A stretch of 21,750 nt of DNA from a virus: the IMG/VR virus record IMGVR_UViG_3300028592_000085, positions 1 to 21,750 of that record; one strand, 5' to 3'. The notes below the pieces were generated by a model, which saw only the letters and a list, made by a program, of their open reading frames with translations, did not search any database and was not told where the DNA came from. The first letter of the stretch is position 1; every line of letters begins with the position of its first letter. Below, piece after piece: positions 3,321 to 18,363 of this stretch. The position numbers were made by a program, and so were the translations under genes.

Positions 3321-3670
3321 CACTCAGGATCCGGGGAGGTCGGCAGGAGGATGAGTTCCTCGCGGTACCACTCTTTCCACTCAACTGGGTCGGCAGCGGT
3401 CTTCTGCTGGACCACGATCACGGCCTGGTCCCAGGGGGCACCGTCAAAGTCGTCCGAGGTGTAGGCGAAAGCGATCTCGCCATTGGTGTCGTCGGCCGTG
3501 TACTCGGTCAGGGTGGCGTACCGGGTGAGGCCGTCCGGCGACTGGATCAGGGCCCGAGCGTCGAGCCATGACTCCGTCTCTTCCGCAACGCCGTCCGAGG
3601 AGAACCGATAGACCAGTTCCCCGGAAGTCCCCTTGGACGCCTTCGCCGGTCCTGTGCAATCGCAGCTCAT
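3320..3670 (-). CDS. Small beta-rich tail-associated protein, 116 aa
   Basis: Not firmly identified. After a short Cys-containing N-terminus (MSCDCTG), the chain reads as an immunoglobulin-like beta domain: GELVYRFSSD, WLDARALIQSPDG, ATLTEYTAD, GEIAFAYTSDDFDG, WDQAVIVVQQ. The pattern is reminiscent of the N-terminal domain of phage upper-baseplate proteins of the BppU type, but this is resemblance only. The C-terminus is acidic and ends in a short Pro-rich tail. Its ATG overlaps the TGA of the upstream gene (ATGA). Position between the Cys-motif protein and the fibres suggests a baseplate or fibre-attachment part. Confidence 0.65.
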   Translation of the reverse strand: MSCDCTGPAKASKGTSGELVYRFSSDGVAEETESWLDARALIQSPDGLTRYATLTEYTADDTNGEIAFAYTSDDFDGAPWDQAVIVVQQKTAADPVEWKEWYREELILLPTSPDPE

Positions 3671-4416
3671 TGCAACACCTCACTGTCTGAAGCCCCCGGA
3701 GAAACCGGGAGGGGAGATCCGGCTGCATCGGCTGGCGGTGCCGTCTCCGGGGGCGGGGGACTCATAAGTTTTTCTTCTGGATTGACAAAGTTTTCGTGAT
3801 CTGAGACAGATAAGGCCACGTTATGGATCGAGCCAAATCCATCAACGGGGCCAGCGCCATGGGTCTCATCTGCCGGGTCATCGATTTGTGTTGCCACCTC
3901 GCCGTCTATCCGACGGTGTGGATCTCCGTTTGGATTTTCGGCAACTTCTTGTACCCGCCCCCCTTCGCCTACGACGTTGCCACCCAGTACGGGAAGATTC
4001 CCAGCGGGATCATCAACGGGTTTATTCCCCTCGACGAACGCCCCCCAAAGGCCGTCGGGGCAGAATGACGTGGCCCATTCGATCTTGGTTTTGAGAACGC
4101 AACCGCACTGCTTGTGACCGCACTCGCCAGGAGTCGATAGGCCGAAATAGTCGCAGCCTTGGCACGTCTTCAGTCGCTCGGCCTGAACTTCTGGCGGTGC
4201 CTTCTTCCGGCCAGTGCTGACGTGCTTCGTGACCGCCTTGGTGAAGTTGACAGCCTTTCGCGCAAGCGACGGTCCGACGAGAAGGTCTTGATACTGGGAC
4301 ACGTCGTATCCCTGCGCCCGCCATTGCTTCAGGGTCACAATGCGGAATCGCTCCGTGTACCCATCGATCTGGGCGCGCTGCTCGTCGGTCAGAGGCTTGA
4401 GGTTTGGTTGGATCAT
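3667..4416 (-). CDS. Cys-motif (zinc-ribbon-like, DUF6171-type) protein with a disordered C-terminal tail, 249 aa
   Basis: The N-terminal 75 residues are helical and charged. Residues 85-124 carry C85-x2-C88, C99, C104-G-C106 and C119-PDGLW, a pattern I associate with small phage proteins of the DUF6171 type; it probably binds a metal or forms a small disulfide knot. After residue 130 the chain is low-complexity, acidic and rich in Gly, Asp and Pro, ending in a Pro-Ala-Ser tail. The frame is open to 4578, but the ATG at 4416 is chosen because it overlaps the upstream TGA as ATGA, and the extension would lie inside the neighbouring gene. No good ribosome site is seen. Codons around 3765-3850 (TTA, TCT, TCA, AAA) are more A+T-rich than the rest. 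Function is unknown; it may be structural or an assembly factor. Confidence 0.7.
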   Translation of the reverse strand: MIQPNLKPLTDEQRAQIDGYTERFRIVTLKQWRAQGYDVSQYQDLLVGPSLARKAVNFTKAVTKHVSTGRKKAPPEVQAERLKTCQGCDYFGLSTPGECGHKQCGCVLKTKIEWATSFCPDGLWGAFVEGNKPVDDPAGNLPVLGGNVVGEGGRVQEVAENPNGDPHRRIDGEVATQIDDPADETHGAGPVDGFGSIHNVALSVSDHENFVNPEEKLMSPPPPETAPPADAAGSPLPVSPGASDSEVLQ

Positions 4417-6257
4417 GAAACCGTTACGTTGTTCAAGCCGTCGCATCCGGGCAGATCGCTCGGGCCAGCGACCACGAATGGACCAGATGGACTTGCGGAC
4501 GAGGCGTTGATCGGGCCACCGTCGAGATGCCACGTTCCGCCGTCTTCGTAATACGAGAACGTGAACAGAGACCCGCAAAGCGTCACGACGCCTTCGTAGA
4601 GCCCTTCACCGCCAAGGCACAGTTCTGTGGTTGTCTCACCGCAACCACAGCCGCCGCTCCCGTCATAGTCGAACGTGACGGTAACCGTGTCTTCCGTCGG
4701 CGGATCCCCGCTCTCGCACCGCTTGAAGCACTTGTAGTCGTCGGGGTAGTCGGCAGCTTCACCGCAGACGCTGTCCTGAGTCCCGCTACACCCTGTCGGG
4801 TAGCAGTTCCCGCACGCATCACAGGTTGTAGATTCGGTGTCGACCACCCATCGCTTGCCGAGACCTTCGCCGAGGTTGGTCGCCTTCAGGACACACGCCT
4901 CAATGGCACAGTCCGGGGCGTTCACCTCGCCGCCGCAGTTCTCCGCGTTCTGGCCGCTCGTGTTCGGGGGAAGCGGGTCGTACGCCTGGATGTAGATTCG
5001 GTCGGGAACCTTGGCGTCACCTTCGATGAGGTTGTCATCACCGCAGGCGTAGCTTGGAGACGCCGTGAAGTCGGTCTCTCGCAGAAGCTCCTGCGGTTCT
5101 TGGTTGCAGTAGTCCGTGATCAGAAGTTCGCCGTCATACCGTGCGATGCGACAGCCGTTTTGAGAGCCCAAGGCCCCGTCCTTCACGCGATACCAGAAGT
5201 TGATCAGGACGATCACTTCAACGATGCGGTCGCCACCCTCATTGAAGCCGCACGACAGGCTTACCCGGATCTGAGCAAGGTCGCCGCTCGGGCAGTTGTC
5301 GTTTGTCAGCCACGCGGCGTAGCGGGTCAGTGGTGCATCAACGTCCTGAAAGGGGATCAGGACTCGCGCGGCGTACCCCTTCGTGTTCGTGTCTTCCAGC
5401 GAGACGATGTCGGTCTCACCGTCCGTATCCAAGACACACTGCGGGAGTTCAATCTCATCGGGCCATTCCTCCTGCCCAAGATACCCCGAGAGCAAGACCT
5501 CCATCTCGCCTTCGTGCCCGACCTGCGACGACATTCCGAACCCGAAGTTCGGAATCGTGATCGCCATGAACGGCGTCGTCTGGCAACTGTCCGTGCAAAT
5601 CTGATAGCGGAGCCGACGAACCGGCGTGACGCAAAGATTGCAGTCGTCCGGCACCTCGGCGTATTCGAACGGCATCGTGGTTTTGAAGATCCACGGGCAG
5701 AGGCACTTCAGCCCGCACGCGTCCGCAAAGCACCACGTCGCCTCGATGATCGGGCAGACGGCCGATTCAGGATCGCCGTCGAACTCCAGCGTCACGATTG
5801 GAGTCGCAAGCGGATCGGTGTCGATATTCGGGAACGAGAGCTTGTAGTAGTACTTCAGCTCGTCCTTGAGCGGGATGTACTCCTCACCCTCAACTGGATC
5901 GTTACACGGGGGCCCATCGAACAGGCGGGTTTTCCAGATCCCATCGCCCTGGTACTGGTAGACCTTCTGGTTGCCCGACTCCTCCCAGAGTTTCCGCTCC
6001 CCGCCCGGGAAGCGAACCGTGAGGTACGGGTGAACCGCGACCCGGGTCCGGTTGACGCAGCCGCACTTCGCCGCGAACGGATCGTCCTCCAGAAGCGGAA
6101 CACCGGGCCAGCAGTTACCGCAGGCACAGGTTGCGGAGGGTGTTCCGCGTGGAAGGCCGTTGACCTCTTCCGCGGTGAGAGTGCGGGGGCGCTCCTGCGG
6201 CGTTGGGCGTCGTGGAACGTCGTGCCGTGAAGTGCTTGGAGAGCGTTCGAACACCAT
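4413..6257 (-). CDS. Large cysteine-rich tail-region protein, 614 aa
   Basis: No confident family. I count about 36 cysteines, close to 6 percent, far above any neighbour. Many are in short clusters: C44-A-C-G-N-C49, C65-G-C67, CGLKCLC, CDACGNCYPTGC (from residue 479), CFKRC and GCGCG. Between them lie beta-rich, aromatic stretches, and the ends are Pro-rich (N) and Gly/Ser-rich (C). No signal peptide or membrane segment is seen. Its place directly after the hub-like protein and before the fibres suggests a central tip, spike or adhesin of the tail, possibly stabilised by disulfides or metals. The ATG overlaps the upstream TAA (TAATG) with AGGAGGTG six bases before it, so the start is secure. 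A long opposite-strand frame over the same DNA is judged to be a shadow. Confidence 0.75.
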   Translation of the reverse strand: MVFERSPSTSRHDVPRRPTPQERPRTLTAEEVNGLPRGTPSATCACGNCWPGVPLLEDDPFAAKCGCVNRTRVAVHPYLTVRFPGGERKLWEESGNQKVYQYQGDGIWKTRLFDGPPCNDPVEGEEYIPLKDELKYYYKLSFPNIDTDPLATPIVTLEFDGDPESAVCPIIEATWCFADACGLKCLCPWIFKTTMPFEYAEVPDDCNLCVTPVRRLRYQICTDSCQTTPFMAITIPNFGFGMSSQVGHEGEMEVLLSGYLGQEEWPDEIELPQCVLDTDGETDIVSLEDTNTKGYAARVLIPFQDVDAPLTRYAAWLTNDNCPSGDLAQIRVSLSCGFNEGGDRIVEVIVLINFWYRVKDGALGSQNGCRIARYDGELLITDYCNQEPQELLRETDFTASPSYACGDDNLIEGDAKVPDRIYIQAYDPLPPNTSGQNAENCGGEVNAPDCAIEACVLKATNLGEGLGKRWVVDTESTTCDACGNCYPTGCSGTQDSVCGEAADYPDDYKCFKRCESGDPPTEDTVTVTFDYDGSGGCGCGETTTELCLGGEGLYEGVVTLCGSLFTFSYYEDGGTWHLDGGPINASSASPSGPFVVAGPSDLPGCDGLNNVTVS

Positions 6258-8152
6258 TACGCCACCTCCTGCGAACCGGAGGTGTATTCGAGGTAGGTCC
6301 GCTGGTTCATATTGTCCAGCGTGACGCCCGTGATCTGGACGTAGCGGGGAACAGCCTCCTCGTCGTCAAGGTTGTACGTGTTCAACTTCAGGCTGATCTC
6401 TCGACCGCCGACTTTGGTGATTACGTCCCCGACCTTGAAGCCCGTCAGGATCCCGAAGAGTTGGGCCGTCCCACTCGTGGGCAGGATCTGAAGTGTTTGG
6501 GCCAGCTTTTCGAGGTAGGTCTGCAGGGCAGCGTTGTCGTTGGCAAGATCAGCGTCGCCCGTGAGCGCGGACGCGAAGTCGCCCCCCGTTCGGCGCCGAC
6601 GGAAATGGAACCTGTCAGACAGATCGAGCATGTCGTAGATCGGGTGAACGATCGAAACGTCATGTTGCAGATCGCTGACGTACACTCCGGTGTTGATCCG
6701 GGTGTCGGACTGGACCCCACAGGTGAGACGAAACTCCAAGCCGGGGTTCTGAAGATCCGGTGGCGGCGTGTGGAACTTGATGCCGATCTGATCGGGCAGG
6801 ACGCGGTAGCCCCACTCCTCGGGGGCGGGTAGCCACTCCTGTGTGGATGCGAGCCGATACTGCAGGAACGGAGGTCGACGGATTCGCTTGTCTGTGACAA
6901 CATCCTTGTAGGTCGTCAGGCAGTCCTCGGCCTTTCGACGACGTGGCAGATAGTCGGGCGAACTGAGTCCGTCGTTGAGGTCAACCGGGGGAATCTCCGG
7001 TCGCAGGTCGGTGTAGTCGAGTCCTTCATTGGCCACCCACGCCCGCCCAATGAACGAGTCCGAGTCATCGGGGATGATCGAGTCGGCCGGCGGGTCCCAG
7101 CACTTGTAAAGCGGGATCGTCAGTTCCTCTTCAGTGAAGGAACCGTAGCCGGCAATCGCCTTGGGAAGAGCCAGAAGGGACACGTTGAACTGTGCCCGCT
7201 CCGTCCGGGACTGATCAACCACCTCGCCGATTGCATCTAGCGGGAGTTCCCATTCCGACGCTTCGCCGTTCGGCCGCCCGCGGGTGAAGATGCGGATGCG
7301 AGGCGTCATGCCGTCTTCGATGACCGACGTTCCTTCGAAAACCACGGCCCATTGAAAACCGTGAGGATCGAGCACAGCCGACAGGTACTGCGGGAGCGAT
7401 TTGGTGATCGGGTACGTCAAGTCCTTCACGTCCGGAGGCGTGAGCATCACCTCCCCAAGTTCGTCCGCTATTTCCTCGGCAGTGGTCCCGATCGTCGCGG
7501 GATTCTTGATCCACCATTCGTCTTCGTTGATGGTCCACAGGAAGTAGGCCACGACCTGCGGCAACGTCCATGACGCAGCCTCGGTCCCCATGTATTCGAG
7601 CGCGGCGGTAGAAAGACCTTGCTCGGGGTCGAGGAGATAGAAGTGACGGGCGGTCTCGTAGGGGGCGGATTCGCTTGCCTCGTCATGTGTCGCGTCCCGA
7701 TTGCCCCGAGCTTTTCCATCAACGACAGGGTTGAAGTAGAACTTCTGCCAGGTGTCCAATGGCTTGTCGCTGAACGGTTCCCAGACACGAGCCCCAGGCG
7801 GCAGTTGCCCGAAGTGGTGCGGCCGAAGCGAAGCCGTGTAGCCGCGAGACTCCTGCGAATCGATGGAGTCGTTCCGCCCAACGATCTCCCCCCGGAAGAT
7901 CGGCCCCAGCGGCTCGTTGTCCTGAAACGCCCACACCTCAACGATGTTGTTCGAGATTGAGGTGAGGGCCGTGTTTTCCAACCGCCCCTCGCGGCCGAGA
8001 TCAAAGAGGAGTGTCGCCTCTGCAACGCCGTTGATCGCCAGACGCACAGTCACCACCTGCCACGAAGGATCATGCTCCTCGTAGTCCGGTTCCCCCCCCT
8101 CTTCATCGCCGACGAAGGCTCGGAGTTCGGTGACAGAGACAACGGGCGGCAA
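6257..8152 (-). CDS. Tail hub / baseplate-like structural protein, 631 aa, TTG start
   Basis: Probably the hub at the tail tip, linking tube and fibres. The size, the position two genes after the tape measure, and the layout fit: an N-terminal beta domain with VTVRLAINGVAEATLLFDLG and IFRGEIVGRN (about residues 30-95, like the first domain of gp27-type hubs), a long mixed middle part with many Trp and Tyr, and a C-terminal beta part with GDVITKVGGREISLKLNTY. No catalytic motif is seen. No ATG lies near the N-terminus; the start is TTG at 8152, supported by AAGGAG six bases upstream within the end of the preceding gene. The hub call is inferred from context and fold pattern, not from a clear family signature. 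Confidence 0.7.
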   Translation of the reverse strand: MPPVVSVTELRAFVGDEEGGEPDYEEHDPSWQVVTVRLAINGVAEATLLFDLGREGRLENTALTSISNNIVEVWAFQDNEPLGPIFRGEIVGRNDSIDSQESRGYTASLRPHHFGQLPPGARVWEPFSDKPLDTWQKFYFNPVVDGKARGNRDATHDEASESAPYETARHFYLLDPEQGLSTAALEYMGTEAASWTLPQVVAYFLWTINEDEWWIKNPATIGTTAEEIADELGEVMLTPPDVKDLTYPITKSLPQYLSAVLDPHGFQWAVVFEGTSVIEDGMTPRIRIFTRGRPNGEASEWELPLDAIGEVVDQSRTERAQFNVSLLALPKAIAGYGSFTEEELTIPLYKCWDPPADSIIPDDSDSFIGRAWVANEGLDYTDLRPEIPPVDLNDGLSSPDYLPRRRKAEDCLTTYKDVVTDKRIRRPPFLQYRLASTQEWLPAPEEWGYRVLPDQIGIKFHTPPPDLQNPGLEFRLTCGVQSDTRINTGVYVSDLQHDVSIVHPIYDMLDLSDRFHFRRRRTGGDFASALTGDADLANDNAALQTYLEKLAQTLQILPTSGTAQLFGILTGFKVGDVITKVGGREISLKLNTYNLDDEEAVPRYVQITGVTLDNMNQRTYLEYTSGSQEVA

Positions 8153-8440: not shown

Positions 8441-8831
8441 TGGGTTCCCTCTGTCGGAAAACGAGTAGGACTTTCACGGTCCAGCCATGCAGGCCAGACC
8501 CATCAGGAAACGTGCGTTCGACTCGCCGCATACTGGCAAAGGTGCAGCTCTCGTAGGTCCGGTCATCAACCACGAGACTGCCGTCGTTGCCCTTGTAGTC
8601 TTCAAGTTCGTCCATCGCGGCTTCGAGCAACGCTCGGGTTTCAAAGCCGCGGTAGCGAACGACAATGGGGATGTCGCGCCCCTTCATCTTGTCCTTGAGG
8701 TGCGTCTCCCCTCGGACGCCAGGGAACTGACCGCTGTAGAGGTTGAACTGCCACTCTTGCGGGTCTTCCCCCTCGTGGATTCCGTACGTCGTGATAAGGT
8801 CGATTGCCGAGTGCGACAGCGTCTGCGACAT
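8415..8831 (-). CDS. Tail protein next to the tape measure, 138 aa
   Basis: Not firmly identified. It lies directly downstream of the tape measure, where lambda has gpM and other phages have a distal-tail protein. It is beta-rich (WQFNLYSGQFPG, IPIVVRYRGFETRALLEAAMDEL, GSLVVDDRTYESCTF, WTVKVLLVFRQRE) and ends in a short Glu-Pro repeat (EPEPEP). The pattern would suit a small ring-forming tail-tip protein, and the lack of a hydrophobic segment argues against a lysis gene. The ATG shares one base with the TGA of the tape measure gene (TGATG), and the gene overlaps the next by 26 bases. Confidence 0.65.
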   Translation of the reverse strand: MSQTLSHSAIDLITTYGIHEGEDPQEWQFNLYSGQFPGVRGETHLKDKMKGRDIPIVVRYRGFETRALLEAAMDELEDYKGNDGSLVVDDRTYESCTFASMRRVERTFPDGSGLHGWTVKVLLVFRQREPNAEPEPEP

Positions 8832-10273
8832 CAGGGAGCCCTCCCCTGCTGCATGACAGGAGAGGCAGGGGCCTTGCCGCTGTTGTTCTGTTTGCGCATC
8901 TCATCAGTGTTGGTCGACAACATCTGACTGTTCTTTCGAAGTTCTGCAGTCACCTCGTCGAATGAGATGTTCATCGGAGAGAACATGCTGTGCGCCGTTC
9001 TCTGGGACACACCCATGCTTCGGGCCATGTCATATCCCCAAGCGTTTACGGCGTTGTGCATTGCCGGCTGGCCGCTCTGCCGAAACATCAGTTCTCGCTG
9101 TTTGGCAATCAGGTCGTCCTGCTGATCCGACGACAACGCTTCTTCCGCCAGAGAAGCATCGAGGCGGTTCTCTGTAGCAACACGACCGGACGTCCCGATT
9201 TCCATCGCCTTCGCCCAGCCGCTGCGGTCTTTTTGTCGACGAAGATTCAGGGCAAAAGCCTCACGTCCCTTCTTGCTCATAAGGGCCGAAAATGCGGCAA
9301 AGTGCTCCTGGCCAACGATGTTTGCGAGATCTGTATCCCGCGTATCCACCGGTGCCTTGTCGTAGGCTTCAGCGATGTCAGTAACCGCTTGAAAAAAGTT
9401 TTCCCCATCCCCAATGAGGTCCACGTTGTCATTGTCGAGACCGAGCCCCTTGAACCCCCGTTGGGCTGACTTATTGTCTTTCTGGGTTTGCAGCTTCCCG
9501 ACAATTCGACTGAGCGATGTTGCTGCCTCAGAAGACGGCATCGTTTCAAGAAGAGTCGCGTAGGCGGCGAACTGCTCAGGCATCGCGACAGACGTCATTC
9601 CCGCGGCATGCTTTGCCAAATCCGGAAGGGCCTGAAGGTTGAAGTTCGTGGGGTTCAACGTCTGAAGCGTCGACATGACATTCGTAATGCCAGCCGCCGT
9701 CTTGTTCTGCCCGGTCGCCGCGAGGTAACTAGAGATCGACGTTGCAAACTCAGCGGGATCGGCATCACGCTCCCCGAGCGCAGCCATGCCCGTCAGTAAG
9801 GCGACGTTTGCCGGTCCCGCCGCGTCTTCCAGTTCGAAGCCAGAGCCCTCAAGTGCCTGTCGGGCCAACGCCGCCTGCTTGATTGTCGTGCCTGCGGTTC
9901 TGGCCGATTGAAAAACCTTCTTTCGGATCGCCTCGGATTCTGGGCCCGAGATGCCAGACAAGGCATCCATCTTTCGGAAAATCGAGTCGTATTCTCGCCC
10001 AACACCTTCCGCTTCCTGGCGGATCTTTCGGTTGGCATCGACGATGAGATTGAGGGTCTGCTGAACACCGACAAGGCTCAGTGCCCATCGGCCGATAGTG
10101 TCGACGACCTGCCCAAAGCTCTGCTTCGTCTCATCCCCAGCCTTCTTCGACTCCTTCGCCAGACCCGACATCTTCCGTTCGAGCTTGTCGAGCATCTGGT
10201 AATGCTTGTTCAGAGCCTCGATGTACTGTCGGTCGTCGAGCGTCTGCGTCAGCGAAATCGTGTTACCCGACAT
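8831..10273 (-). CDS. Tail tape measure protein, 480 aa
   Basis: Sets tail length and is ejected with the DNA in siphoviruses. The N-terminal 50 residues are coiled-coil-like (LNKHYQMLDKLERKMSGLAK). A hydrophobic segment lies at 56-78 (VVDTIGRWALSLVGV...), followed by a TP901-type core: ESEAIRKKVFQSARTAG, LARQALEGSGF, NVMSTLQTLNP, FFQAVTDIAEAYDKAPVDTRD, then DLANIVGQEHFAAFSALMS. The C-terminus is polar with helices. The frame is open to 10351, but the ATG at 10273 has GAGGTG shortly upstream and overlaps the previous gene by only 11 bases; the extension is Arg/Ser-rich and unlikely. At about 1.5 angstrom per residue, the family's usual scaling, the tail would be near 70 nm. Confidence 0.8.
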   Translation of the reverse strand: MSGNTISLTQTLDDRQYIEALNKHYQMLDKLERKMSGLAKESKKAGDETKQSFGQVVDTIGRWALSLVGVQQTLNLIVDANRKIRQEAEGVGREYDSIFRKMDALSGISGPESEAIRKKVFQSARTAGTTIKQAALARQALEGSGFELEDAAGPANVALLTGMAALGERDADPAEFATSISSYLAATGQNKTAAGITNVMSTLQTLNPTNFNLQALPDLAKHAAGMTSVAMPEQFAAYATLLETMPSSEAATSLSRIVGKLQTQKDNKSAQRGFKGLGLDNDNVDLIGDGENFFQAVTDIAEAYDKAPVDTRDTDLANIVGQEHFAAFSALMSKKGREAFALNLRRQKDRSGWAKAMEIGTSGRVATENRLDASLAEEALSSDQQDDLIAKQRELMFRQSGQPAMHNAVNAWGYDMARSMGVSQRTAHSMFSPMNISFDEVTAELRKNSQMLSTNTDEMRKQNNSGKAPASPVMQQGRAP

Positions 10274-10994
10274 CGTCCACCTCGCTTTCGAGGGGAATCG
10301 CGAGTGCCTCCGCTGCGAACTTCTGCTTACGGTGGATCTCGATGGATCCAACAGCCGCCAAGATCATCGGCCCCAGCGTCTCCGAGGTCAGGAGCCCGAG
10401 TACGTTCACGATCTCCGGGGTGATGCGGTAGTTGAGAGCCAACGAGTCGTAGCCGAACTCAAAGGCGTGCCCCCACTCAACGCCGTCTTCCGCCTTGCCG
10501 GTCGTGAGCTGACGGGTAAACGCCTCGCACCGCTTGATCCAGCTCGTCGCCTCAAAGTTGCGAGTCTGGTAGCGAGACATCCTCTCCAGTTTCACGCCGT
10601 CGGCGGTCAGGACGGTGGCCACGGGGAGCAGCAAGACGTCCGGGATGATCCACGCTTGCTCGGCGTCATTGAGCGGGAGTTGGTCCCCCGGAATCGGAAG
10701 CGGGACTTGAAGTTCTCGGGCCCGAGGCAGTTTCTCCGTGCCGTAGCCGACCGAGTATCGACCAGCAGCGAGACCGCGGAACGGCAGGGCCTCAAGCCAC
10801 GTCAGCGGTGACTTCGGGAGGGCGGTCGAGTCCCCTGGCTGAGGCCAGTAGTAGAGGATTCCGCTCTTGCCGTTGATCTGATGGACGATCGTGTGGAACC
10901 CGTGCGCAAGATGTCCCAGGCCAACGTCCCGCAGGGGTGCGGGATCAGCGTTAGCGCAAGGCTGCTCGGCGGGAATCCAGATCCGAAAGTGCAT
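10263..10994 (-). CDS. Unrecognised protein in the tail-assembly-chaperone position, 243 aa
   Basis: It lies between the tail-tube candidate and the tape measure, where lambda has the gpG/gpGT chaperones. The N-terminal half reads as a beta-containing domain (FHTIVHQINGKSGILYY, GLAAGRYSVGYGTEKL). The second half is mostly helical and contains FEFGYDSLALNYRITPEIV followed by LGLLTSETLGPMILAAV, as if a chaperone-like domain were joined to something else. I see no slippery heptamer near its end nor a suitable overlapping frame, so no programmed frameshift is called. The ATG lies three bases after the upstream TGA; the ribosome site is weak (TGAG). Function as a chaperone is a guess from position. 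Confidence 0.6.
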   Translation of the reverse strand: MHFRIWIPAEQPCANADPAPLRDVGLGHLAHGFHTIVHQINGKSGILYYWPQPGDSTALPKSPLTWLEALPFRGLAAGRYSVGYGTEKLPRARELQVPLPIPGDQLPLNDAEQAWIIPDVLLLPVATVLTADGVKLERMSRYQTRNFEATSWIKRCEAFTRQLTTGKAEDGVEWGHAFEFGYDSLALNYRITPEIVNVLGLLTSETLGPMILAAVGSIEIHRKQKFAAEALAIPLESEVDDVG

Positions 10995-13471: not shown

Positions 13472-14446
13472 TCAGACGTGCGTGTTGGTCAGGAGGTGAC
13501 CGCAGGCCGTGTACATGACCTTGATCTGACGGTCGTTTCGGACCCGGATCACGTCGCCACGTCGCGTCTCATCGCGGTAGCTCTCGACCACGCCATCGAC
13601 GCCACCGTCGCCCGTCCAGTTGAAGATTCGTCCGAGGCAGGGCTCCGAGACGTCATCGCTGGTCGCGATGCGGGCCACCATCGCCATCGACTCGTCCCAG
13701 ATGCCCGACAGGTTGGCGTTCTGTCCTTCGGCCGCCGTGTCCTTGGTGCCGCCCGCCACGATGATGTAGGGGAGGTCGAACACGACCGAAAGTTCCTGGG
13801 CGGTGATGGCGCCCTTGCGAACGTCCATGAAGCCCTGGGCCTTCGAGCGGTCGATGATCTCGGCCACGTTCCGCAGTTTGCGGTAGAGCAGCCGCGAGAT
13901 GATGAGGGCATTCGCCCAGAGTCCGGTGTTCTCATAGATCTTGAGAACGGCCCCCTCGACATCCGCCACCGGGGTGGCCGTGGCAGCCGTCGACCAGGGA
14001 GTCGATACCGCCGTGGTCAGCGTCGCGCCGGCGTAGGTGACGGTGTTGAAGAGAGCCGCGGCAACGGCCTCCTCGGTCCCAACCATGATCTCCCGCATCG
14101 CCCGGTTGCGCGCCTTCACTTCGGCGTCGAAGTAGTTGGCATACATCTTGGCTTCGCGATCGTCGATCACCTCTTCGACGCCATGCTCTTCGGTGGCAAA
14201 ACTGTCGGTTTCGAAATTCCAGTTGCCACGGCTGTAGCCGGACCGCGGGGCCCGGCGGGTCTCGCGGCGCTTCAGAAGTTCCTTGAGGGGGATCCGGCCG
14301 AAACTCCCGGCCTGAACCGCCACATCGAGTTTCGGCAGGACGCGTTGGCCGATGAAGCCCTCCGCGTCCGCCAGAACATCGAACTCTTCCATCGAAGCCA
14401 AATCGGGTCGCAGCGTTGCAAGGCTGCTCGTTGGGGTTGCGCCCAT
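13472..14446 (-). CDS. Major capsid protein (HK97 fold, gpE-like), 324 aa
   Basis: Main shell protein. It lies right after the decoration gene, the lambda D-E order, and its length is near lambda gpE (341 aa). Recognisable parts are an N-terminal arm and E-loop region rich in Arg (LKRRETRRAPRSGYSRGNW), a long spine-helix region (YFDAEVKARNRAMREIMVGTEEAVAAALFN split over about residues 104-134), an A-domain with NALIISRLLYRKLRNVAEIIDRSKA, and a C-terminal part with LPYIIVAGGTKDTA, WDESMAMVARIA and LGRIFNWTGDGG. The sequence AGAGGA lies about nine bases before the ATG. A hairpin occupies the 74-base leader between it and the decoration gene. Cleavage by the upstream protease is not evident from sequence. 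Confidence 0.85.
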   Translation of the reverse strand: MGATPTSSLATLRPDLASMEEFDVLADAEGFIGQRVLPKLDVAVQAGSFGRIPLKELLKRRETRRAPRSGYSRGNWNFETDSFATEEHGVEEVIDDREAKMYANYFDAEVKARNRAMREIMVGTEEAVAAALFNTVTYAGATLTTAVSTPWSTAATATPVADVEGAVLKIYENTGLWANALIISRLLYRKLRNVAEIIDRSKAQGFMDVRKGAITAQELSVVFDLPYIIVAGGTKDTAAEGQNANLSGIWDESMAMVARIATSDDVSEPCLGRIFNWTGDGGVDGVVESYRDETRRGDVIRVRNDRQIKVMYTACGHLLTNTHV

Positions 14447-15920: not shown

Positions 15921-16829
15921 GATCACCTCTGGGACTGAAATGCCGGTCGCTCGACCAGACGAAGGACGTTTCACTTTTGCCAGCATCTGCATCGCTCGAT
16001 CGAACGACTGAATGCCGTCAATCAACTTGAGTTCCTGGGCCTGCTTCGCCGACCACGTTCGGCCAGACGAGACGGCCTCGAATTCCGACTTGGACATGCT
16101 GCGTCCGGATCGAACCGCTGACTCGAACATGCCGAAGGACTGCTGGACGGAGTCCTGCCAGACGGCAATTTGCGAATCCGGAATCGGGGCCCCTTCGATG
16201 CCGGCCCCTTTGTGCTCTCCGGTCCGGATGACGTGGACGGCTACACCGGCCTCCTCGTACGCCTTGGACCAGTCCTTGACGGCCATCACAACGCCGATGG
16301 AACCGATATCGGCCGACTCGTTGGACAGCACGCGGTCTGCCTGTGACGCTGGCCAGTAGCCTGCGGAACAGCAAAGATCCTCGATGTAGGACCAGACCGG
16401 CTTTGATTCCTTCGCCGCAACGATGTCGTTCGACAGTTCGCTGGTGCCGGCAACCAGACCACCAGGGGTTTCCCAGTGCATCATGATTGCTGTGATAGAC
16501 GGATCCGTTGTTGCGTTCCGGATCGCTCGGCGAGCCCGGACCGTTGAGCCCTCTGGGCTGAAACTGGAACCGTGCTTGGTCATCGGACCGGCCACGCGAA
16601 TGACCGCGATGGAACCGTTGACCTCGTATCCGTAGTTCGTCGCCGCCGCTTCGACCTTCGGCTGATTCAGTGCGAGATGTGCCGCCAGTTCCGGACCGTG
16701 GAGACGGGACGCCTGGGCCACCATCAACTGCAGGTGTCGTTCGTCGATCGCCCACAGCCCTGCATACTGGCTGAAGTGCGGGATCGCGGCGACGTTCGAG
16801 TCCAGGCGGAGGTTAAGCGGGCTGTGCAT
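15459..16829 (-). CDS. S49-family prohead protease with C-terminal scaffold domain (gpC-like), 456 aa
   Basis: Matures the prohead by proteolysis. Residues about 70-290 form an SppA-type domain: GSIAVIRVAGPMT, the oxyanion-region motif ETPGG (120-124), the serine nucleophile in CCSAGYW (Ser155), GSIGVVMAV (176-184) and the lysine base in RTGEHKGAG (Lys207). The Ser-Lys separation of 52 residues is usual for the family. Residues 304-456 are Ala-, Lys- and Glu-rich and helical, as in the scaffold part of lambda gpC (439 aa in total). The ATG at 16829 has AAGGGA before it and overlaps the portal gene by 17 bases. The C-terminal third can also be made alone from an internal start at 15920. Confidence 0.9.
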   Translation of the reverse strand: MHSPLNLRLDSNVAAIPHFSQYAGLWAIDERHLQLMVAQASRLHGPELAAHLALNQPKVEAAATNYGYEVNGSIAVIRVAGPMTKHGSSFSPEGSTVRARRAIRNATTDPSITAIMMHWETPGGLVAGTSELSNDIVAAKESKPVWSYIEDLCCSAGYWPASQADRVLSNESADIGSIGVVMAVKDWSKAYEEAGVAVHVIRTGEHKGAGIEGAPIPDSQIAVWQDSVQQSFGMFESAVRSGRSMSKSEFEAVSSGRTWSAKQAQELKLIDGIQSFDRAMQMLAKVKRPSSGRATGISVPEVIMSEEQPKPVAATFKELVAACPGIEANEAGDAMFLADCQKRELTASQATAEWCKTLKDRTAAAREDAKKAQPVAGLVVKLSGLQPVNDAPKGADSGAADTSDPIAAWDEAVEAALPKNGNSRDKARLAVARAKPDLQRAYVNAKNAEAGRTGRI

Positions 16830-18363
16830 TGGGGCTCCCTTCCGCCGCGACGGTCTCGGACTTGGTTTCGCTCTTGGTGACGCCCTGAGGTTGCGACATC
16901 GGACAAAGCATTTCCGGAGTAGTTTTGAACTCCGGAAACTCGTCGTTTAATTCGCGTGCCGCGATGCACGACAGCCGACGAGCAAACTTCCGATCATCAA
17001 CAATTTCGGCCGCAAGGATCTCCCAATCGACACCATGTCGAGTCGCAGCAAATCGGCGATGGGAGGTCATCCCTTCCCCGAGTTCCATTCGGTGACGGGC
17101 AGCGTCCTTTTCGGGGTCGATGTACTCCCATCCCGGGAAATTCCATCCGTGCCGCAGAAGAACTTTCAGGCCATCCGGACCGGTCTTTTCCAAGAACGCA
17201 AGAAGCCTGTCGTTCGTCTTGGCCCACTGTCGCACCTTCCAGTGATATACCGGGCAGTGCCAGCGGCGTACTTCAGTGTGTCGCAGGTCCGAATACGTCT
17301 CCTGAGCCTTTTGGATCACTCCTCGCCAACCGCTGAAATTCAACTTCGACGGATCCAGAATCAGAACCGCCAGCGGAACATCAATGTTGATCGCGAAGGT
17401 TGTCAGAAGTTGAAGCGTGAAGGTCTCGAACTCACTACCCGGGATGTTTGGGTTGAGTACACGCCACGTCTTCCCCGGCTTTCCCCTGAGTATTCGGCCC
17501 GGAACCATGTCCACTAACGTTCGTGGCGTTCCGTCCGCCCAATAGTCATACGACACTGCCCCATCAGCGACCTCTTGAGGCGTTTGAATTGCGCCAACGT
17601 CCCACTCCTCTGCGTAGGTGATACACGAATTCACCTGTGCGCGAACGAGGTTTGCAAAGAACAAATCGTCTCTCATTGAGGCGATGTCGTAACAGCTCAC
17701 AAACCGGGAAATGCCTCTCGACTGCGTGAAACGTTCGTCGTCATAAACGTGAAACGCGTTGTGCCCACCATCGTCATCGAAAGCGGGGATCGAAGTGACG
17801 TCCGAAACCTTTGCCCGTTCGTTGGGGTTGATAGGCTCCTTTGTAAGCCAGTAACGAGTTGGGCGCCCGGTGTTCTCCATCTCAACGCCGCACACGCCGC
17901 GAAATGTACGGCCGGTGTCAGGCGAGCGAAGGCGGTGAGCCTCCAGCGTCTGAATCTGCCCATTCTCCAGGGGCAAGCCGATGAAGTCGCCGTCGACCAT
18001 CGTTCTGGCAAACCCGACGTTCGTCATCTTCCGCCAGTCCATCTTGCCGGCGGCGTGACATGTCAAAGGGTTTTCGGACCACTCTGCCCACAGGTCAAAG
18101 AGAATCGTGTTGATCTCTTTGTCACCCGTTGTTGGATTGAGAGTCGCGCCTCCCGGCTGCACGCTGCTAACAAGGCGGCGGATCCCTTGCCTTGCGTATG
18201 GGTCCTCTCTCTCCACTTCCCTGGCCAGTTCAACCATCCGCAAATACTGGCTTTGGGAACGGATGTGGTAGTCCGCCCCGGAACCCATCGGATCGAATCC
18301 GGTACGGTCACGACGAAACCGCGACGGCTTTGTCATTCCGTAGTCGGCCCGCATGTCTTGCAT
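16813..18363 (-). CDS. Portal protein, lambda gpB type, 516 aa
   Basis: Forms the dodecameric ring at the capsid vertex for DNA entry and exit. It shows the Phage_portal_2 pattern: an N-terminal part with LAREVEREDPYARQGIRRLVSS split over about residues 46-67, a wing region with DGDFIGLPLENGQIQTLEAHR, FHVYDDERFTQSRGIS, the stem and tunnel-loop region around SKLNFSGWRG (NFSGWRG at 342-348), and the C-terminal signature YIDPEKDAARHRMELGEGM followed by RFAATRHGVDWEI. Length is near lambda gpB (533 aa). ATG at 18363 is used; an ATG three codons later has better spacing from the same GAGG. It overlaps the protease gene by 17 bases. Confidence 0.9.
   Translation of the reverse strand: MQDMRADYGMTKPSRFRRDRTGFDPMGSGADYHIRSQSQYLRMVELAREVEREDPYARQGIRRLVSSVQPGGATLNPTTGDKEINTILFDLWAEWSENPLTCHAAGKMDWRKMTNVGFARTMVDGDFIGLPLENGQIQTLEAHRLRSPDTGRTFRGVCGVEMENTGRPTRYWLTKEPINPNERAKVSDVTSIPAFDDDGGHNAFHVYDDERFTQSRGISRFVSCYDIASMRDDLFFANLVRAQVNSCITYAEEWDVGAIQTPQEVADGAVSYDYWADGTPRTLVDMVPGRILRGKPGKTWRVLNPNIPGSEFETFTLQLLTTFAINIDVPLAVLILDPSKLNFSGWRGVIQKAQETYSDLRHTEVRRWHCPVYHWKVRQWAKTNDRLLAFLEKTGPDGLKVLLRHGWNFPGWEYIDPEKDAARHRMELGEGMTSHRRFAATRHGVDWEILAAEIVDDRKFARRLSCIAARELNDEFPEFKTTPEMLCPMSQPQGVTKSETKSETVAAEGSPNAQPA

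Follow-up and report, generated by a model that had tools for sequence, protein, structure and literature searches.

We analysed a linear fragment of 21,750 bases that makes up a whole IMG/VR virus record (the window) and propose that its gene P0001 (4413..6257, minus strand; an ORF call of 614 aa with 36 Cys) encodes a cysteine-rich distal tail protein acting as a variable adhesin, probably stabilised by disulfides and attached through a cysteine-cluster anchor, a reading to which we give roughly even credence. On this reading P0001 belongs to a known class, the variable tail adhesins. The protein itself is an orphan, and the broader claim made below for a whole group of phages draws its evidence from relatives and not from P0001.

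Cysteine content and authenticity of the gene

An extreme cysteine richness had been reported for this ORF by a sequence-only reading and proves real: cysteines account for 5.9% of P0001 (36/614 residues), compared with 0-2.5% across the window's 23 remaining gene calls, and they form the clusters that it described, on the minus strand. These comprise CACGNC (residues 44-49), CGC (65-67), CDACGNC (479-485) and CGC (537-539). The first two make up an N-terminal cluster (residues 44-67; 6057..6128, minus) that we liken to the N-terminal CCC and CCxC clusters of relatives, and residues 479-514 form a second dense cluster containing 7 Cys (4716..4823, minus). Clustering exceeds that expected from composition to a modest degree, with eight CxC/CxxC pairs observed against 4.0 expected, a count reached in 168 of 5000 shuffles. 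The suggestion that the two similar clusters reflect an internal duplication finds no support: both CGNC[W/Y]P motifs are present as an eight-residue motif, but the DNA match covers 27 nt (81%, E 0.12) and a protein self-BLAST returns the self-match alone.

Several features indicate that the ORF is genuine, namely a third-position GC of 0.756, as in the adjoining genes, an AGGAGG ribosome-binding site (6265..6270, minus) 7 nt ahead of the ATG, and overlaps on both sides, of the start with the stop codon of the preceding hub gene (TAATG) and of the stop codon with the start of the next gene (ATGA). An antisense ORF of 567 aa (4527-6230, plus strand) was rejected, its third-position GC being only 0.602.

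P0001 has no recognisable homologue in the collections searched. None was found in the viral-contig scan, using either the whole protein or its C-terminal 100 aa, nor by tblastn in phages or plasmids; the PDB yielded no homologue (best E 1.2), Pfam, with curated tail families including gpL covered, 0 families at E up to 1, NCBIfam 0 families, and PHROGs no named family and one unnamed PHROG at E 0.048. The best match in 80 genomes of the phylum of G008 (E 0.0097, 13.8 bits) was taken as chance. A single-sequence structure model has a mean pLDDT of 34 and is unfit for a fold search; the C-terminal region (residues 515-614; 4416..4715, minus) is the sole part of that model hinting at regular beta strands, at low confidence (block pLDDT means ~42-59).

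Position in the tail module

The minus strand of the window carries, in order, genes for the small and large terminase subunits, portal, head protease, capsid, tail proteins, a hub, P0001 and the gene at 3667-4416. The major capsid protein (13472..14446, minus; phrog_1005) served as the marker for finding related phages. A probable tape measure protein of 506 aa lacking cysteine (8831..10351, minus) is assigned from its place, its size and a relative in L026, and has no family match. Downstream of P0001, a 249-aa product read from the ATG overlapping the P0001 stop (3667..4416, minus) belongs to phrog_13558, of unknown function, a match found with the longer ORF; it contains a four-cysteine ribbon-like stretch and has no Pfam match. 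Small cysteine-ribbon stretches also occur 3' of the equivalent position in four related contigs (L018, L045, L046, L124).

The gene directly upstream of P0001 encodes a tail hub protein of 631 aa (6257..8152, minus) with a VgrG/baseplate-hub-like model. Distant relatives sharing 25-30% identity (alignment A4) were found in five other phage contigs (L005, L026/L122, L123, L124, L125). A model built from six hub sequences has a mean pLDDT of 53, and almost all of its top PDB matches are hub proteins (eCIS, AFP baseplate, VgrG, Mu, PhiTE and P1 baseplate; best E 9e-4); since model confidence is modest, these matches are taken as indicative. With a hub-like neighbour, P0001 occupies a place typical of tail-tip and adhesin genes, and the tail-tip or spike position proposed for it earlier is thus supported, the gene directly following a hub whose VgrG/AFP/Mu-type model has modest confidence.

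Recurrence of an N-terminal cysteine cluster in related phages

Searching with the capsid marker recovered seven viral contigs and one MAG contig (in MAG Gpa_8), and subsequently 80 loci were retained of 242 (alignment A1); three contigs found via the hub (L123-L125) carry the same capsid family as the window. A distant capsid relative (L019, G063:C358; 27% identity, E 7.7e-23) is from a second genome of the phylum to which MAG Gpa_8 belongs. We refer to the place at the end of the tail module, at or beside the position equivalent to that of P0001, as the slot, and score a protein as having an N-terminal cluster if 3 Cys lie within 12 residues inside its first 70 residues; the slot, this criterion and the hub types used below were all set after inspection of the data.

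A cluster of this kind (CCC, CCxC or CxCxxC) is present at or beside the slot in 19 of 24 readable capsid-family contigs, and the same criterion picks out 13 ORFs from a background of 807 further non-identical ones on the plus strand, which excludes slot proteins as well as a separate, conserved zinc-finger-like family (35 ORFs) encoded ahead of the tape measure. Members of that family (e.g. L049 13694-14020, L033 7302-7628) are conserved proteins of ~108 aa with several CxxC pairs, resembling DnaJ zinc fingers by eye; they lie 5' of the tape measure in many capsid relatives, and none was found in the window.

Recurrence differs between hub types. Hub-2 is represented by 26 contigs, 10 of them cut before the slot, and 15 of the 16 readable ones encode a cluster protein (L022, L033, L045, L046, L048, L049, L050, L053, L056, L064, L057, L067, L068, L069 and L076; L056 and L064 are near-identical, and L076, whose ORF is cut at 76 aa, was scored by eye), the sixteenth being L004. 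One gene intervenes before the cluster protein of L053. Among hub-B contigs the cluster is present in L009/L018 and absent in L027/L031/L034, with L025, L040 and L006/L014 cut before the slot. Hub-A phages have it in the window, in L124 (after the hub, with one small ORF between) and in L125 (directly before the hub), while no such protein lies by the hub in L005, L026 and L123, i.e. in 3 of 6 with the window counted. Relatives that keep the gene order with the cysteines gone had been named beforehand as evidence against a cysteine-dependent tail protein, and half of the hub-A phages do lack a cluster protein; however, because the post-hub proteins of L005 and L026 are not recognisably P0001-like, what is apparent there is replacement rather than cysteine loss.

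The P0001 cluster is at residue 44 and not at the extreme N-terminus, and phmmer finds no sequence relation between P0001 and the other slot proteins. Among the 17 slot proteins measured (L064 and L076 omitted), 14 contain 3.7-8.0% Cys overall and the remaining three (L050, L053, L068) 1.3-2.6%. We suggest that a tight N-terminal cysteine cluster after the hub could serve as a marker for tail-end genes that share no sequence.

Variable bodies behind a conserved start

Comparison of closely related contigs shows that the bodies of slot proteins are hypervariable. L049 and L056 are identical at 324/325 capsid and 284/300 hub-2 positions, but the slot proteins of the two, each opening with a CCC cluster, are unrelated to one another. 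Those of L050 and L068, whose hub-2 proteins are identical at 260/284 positions, share the nine residues MAFKVCCSC and then diverge (24% overall), a pattern repeated in L033/L045/L067; in contrast, L057 and L076 are identical at 46 of the first 68 slot residues. Receptor-binding parts of phage tails combine a constant start or anchor with a fast-changing body, and with hypervariable bodies behind a conserved start the slot proteins behave like tail adhesins. For P0001 itself, we infer such behaviour from its place and composition.

Genes for sugar and sulfate transfer also occur in these regions. Sulfotransferase and glycosyltransferase genes lie near the cysteine-cluster tail genes of L069 (14978-15490), L124 (10663-12045) and L125 (4772-5482; weak), and either the tail protein or the host surface may be modified by their products. 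The L056 slot protein (16713-17120; also in L064 and L098) starts with ...ACCCD followed by a serine-rich stretch including an unbroken run of 45 serines, and its gene is near GT25 glycosyltransferase and methyltransferase genes. The transferase genes near the slot and this serine run together raise the possibility of glycosylated adhesins.

Erv1/Alr-like genes beside the slot

In four distinct relatives, represented by five contigs (L022, L049, L069, L056, L064), the gene immediately following the slot encodes an Erv1/Alr-like domain (L049 18564-19031; L022 19540-20820; L069 13954-14997; L056 17105-17620). Scored against PF04777, whose cut-off is 27.6 bits, L049 lies above it at 39.1 and L069, L022 and L056 below it at 24.0, 18.2 and 16.1, respectively. 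A profile of the four sequences gave 16 PDB matches at E up to 1, the top 14 being ALR/Erv FAD-linked sulfhydryl oxidases (best E 1.8e-5). The FAD-proximal motif reads CxxC in L049 and L022, CxC in L069 and CxxxC in L056, and the HN..VN motif of L049, L022 and L069 is replaced by KNAVN in L056; in L069 the domain precedes a GT8 glycosyltransferase domain within one protein.

When 29 virus records were searched whole, the profile matched in four, every time beside the slot, and the domain occurs in 5 of 14 contigs with a readable neighbouring gene (the window, L018, L022, L045, L046 (partly), L049, L050, L053, L056, L064, L067, L069, L124 and L125). No such gene was found in the window, which is a fragment, or in its closest hub relatives. 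PF04777 matched in one of 14 control genomes, under the cut-off. Single-sequence tblastn of the Erv-like domains against 50,697 phage records, a search insensitive for so divergent a family, found nothing, and no named PHROGs match was better than E 0.02. Erv1/Alr-like domains in tailed-phage contigs are possibly undescribed so far in phages, and the pairing of a cysteine-rich tail gene with a sulfhydryl oxidase is not described in the excerpts of the literature searched, including those of PMC10721106, PMC10276861, PMC12750041, PMC10598087 and PMC3509050.

Proposed function and alternative explanations

Our preferred model sees P0001 as the distal, hypervariable end piece with which a siphophage-like tail would bind its receptor, and both its virion location and its role as an adhesin are what we infer. 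The N-terminal cysteine cluster would form a compact anchor on the hub, and the long cysteine-rich body would consist of successive small domains, mostly beta, which vary between phages and contact the host. Most body cysteines would pair as disulfides, keeping short, fast-evolving domains rigid, and in some relatives oxidation may take place inside the host, through the putative activity of the neighbouring Erv1/Alr-type enzyme on this presumed substrate. For the earlier idea of a disulfide-locked device, the relatives offer indirect support through Erv1/Alr-type genes beside the equivalent gene in four of them, while the window contributes none. Several observations weigh against the preferred model: an Erv1/Alr gene is missing from the window, from its closest hub relatives and from 9 of the 14 readable neighbouring positions; two of the four Erv-like domains depart from CxxC and three score under the Pfam cut-off; the P0001 cluster lies at residue 44 in a protein unrelated by phmmer to the other slot proteins; half of the hub-A phages have no cluster protein by the hub; and the P0001 model is of very low confidence.

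Metal binding, in which CxC, CxxC and CxCxxC groups would hold Zn or Fe-S and so fold and stiffen small modules, is the likeliest of the alternatives, and we think it rather unlikely. It has a tail-tip precedent in the [4Fe-4S] cluster that lambda gpL and the R4C hub each bind through four cysteines, as given in excerpts of PMC10721106 and PMC10276861, and it requires no oxidase in a reducing cytoplasm. Moreover, CC, CxC and CxxC number 36, 32 and 30 against ~15 expected in the 17 whole slot proteins (0/500 shuffles). Beyond the first 70 residues, however, the excess of CxxC is mild (12, with 7.1 expected; 25/500 shuffles), and the remaining close spacings show next to none, x4 (19/500 shuffles) being the exception. 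Comparing whole proteins with bodies in this way attributes the enrichment to the N-terminal clusters, which could bind Zn or Fe-S instead; body cysteine spacing is nearly uninformative as a test between metal and disulfides. P0001 has no gpL-family match, and Erv1/Alr genes adjoining the slot point to oxidation.

That P0001 is not part of the virion at all, and is an infection-stage product (for surface modification or superinfection exclusion) that happens to follow the hub gene, strikes us as improbable. Genes found close to the slot of L056, L069 and L124 (GT25, GT8, GT1, methyltransferase, sulfotransferase) would fit a surface-modifying cassette. The overlaps of P0001 with the genes on either side and the place of the slot gene as the last of the tail module in several relatives speak against this reading, and the conserved N-terminal cluster ahead of a variable body suits an anchored adhesin. 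We regard as very improbable a thiol-active adhesin whose free tail cysteines would undergo disulfide exchange with a proteinaceous cell surface rich in cysteine, leading to covalent attachment. Some bacteria do have disulfide-rich walls, and such exchange would account for a very high, poorly conserved cysteine content at the host-facing end, yet free thiols would oxidise in water.

Returning to disulfide stabilisation, we put forward more tentatively, and with a chance well short of even, that an uncultivated clade of tailed phages builds disulfide-locked hypervariable adhesins in the reducing cytoplasm with its own adjoining Erv1/Alr-type oxidase. Ordinarily one would expect tail adhesins to fold there and to do without disulfides. 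If the proposal is true, phages would have an equivalent of the disulfide-forming systems that large eukaryotic DNA viruses use in the cytosol, and a means by which very short, quickly evolving domains could stay rigid. Cysteine-packed adhesins across a phage group, some of them beside an oxidase-like gene, would show another route to rigid, fast-evolving binders, and adhesin and oxidase form a defined gene pair that can be expressed and tested.

Comparison with known systems

Slot proteins resemble siphophage receptor-binding proteins and tail fibres in lying at the end of the tail module and in having, among the relatives, a short constant start and a fast-changing body; they differ in that the constant start is a tight cysteine cluster and the bodies are often 4-8% Cys, and no known fibre family was recognised in them. 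With lambda gpL and the RcGTA- and R4C-type hubs, P0001 shares the presence of cysteines, a presumed tail-tip location and a gene within the hub region, but those proteins, in the excerpts of PMC10721106 and PMC10276861, have four conserved cysteines in one cluster, whereas P0001 has 36 cysteines, no family match and no conserved sequence, and is encoded after a separate hub.

For the Erv1/Alr-like genes the nearest counterparts are the oxidases of mimivirus (R596), ASFV and poxviruses (E10R), likewise viral genes of the PF04777 family, which there catalyse disulfide formation; according to excerpts of PMC3509050 and PMC10598087, Erv enzymes make disulfides via a di-cysteine beside FAD and are highly conserved among large eukaryotic DNA viruses. 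The domains described here differ from these in residing in tailed-phage contigs beside a tail gene, in having a putative activity, in carrying CxC or CxxxC in two of the four, and, in L069, in being fused to a glycosyltransferase.
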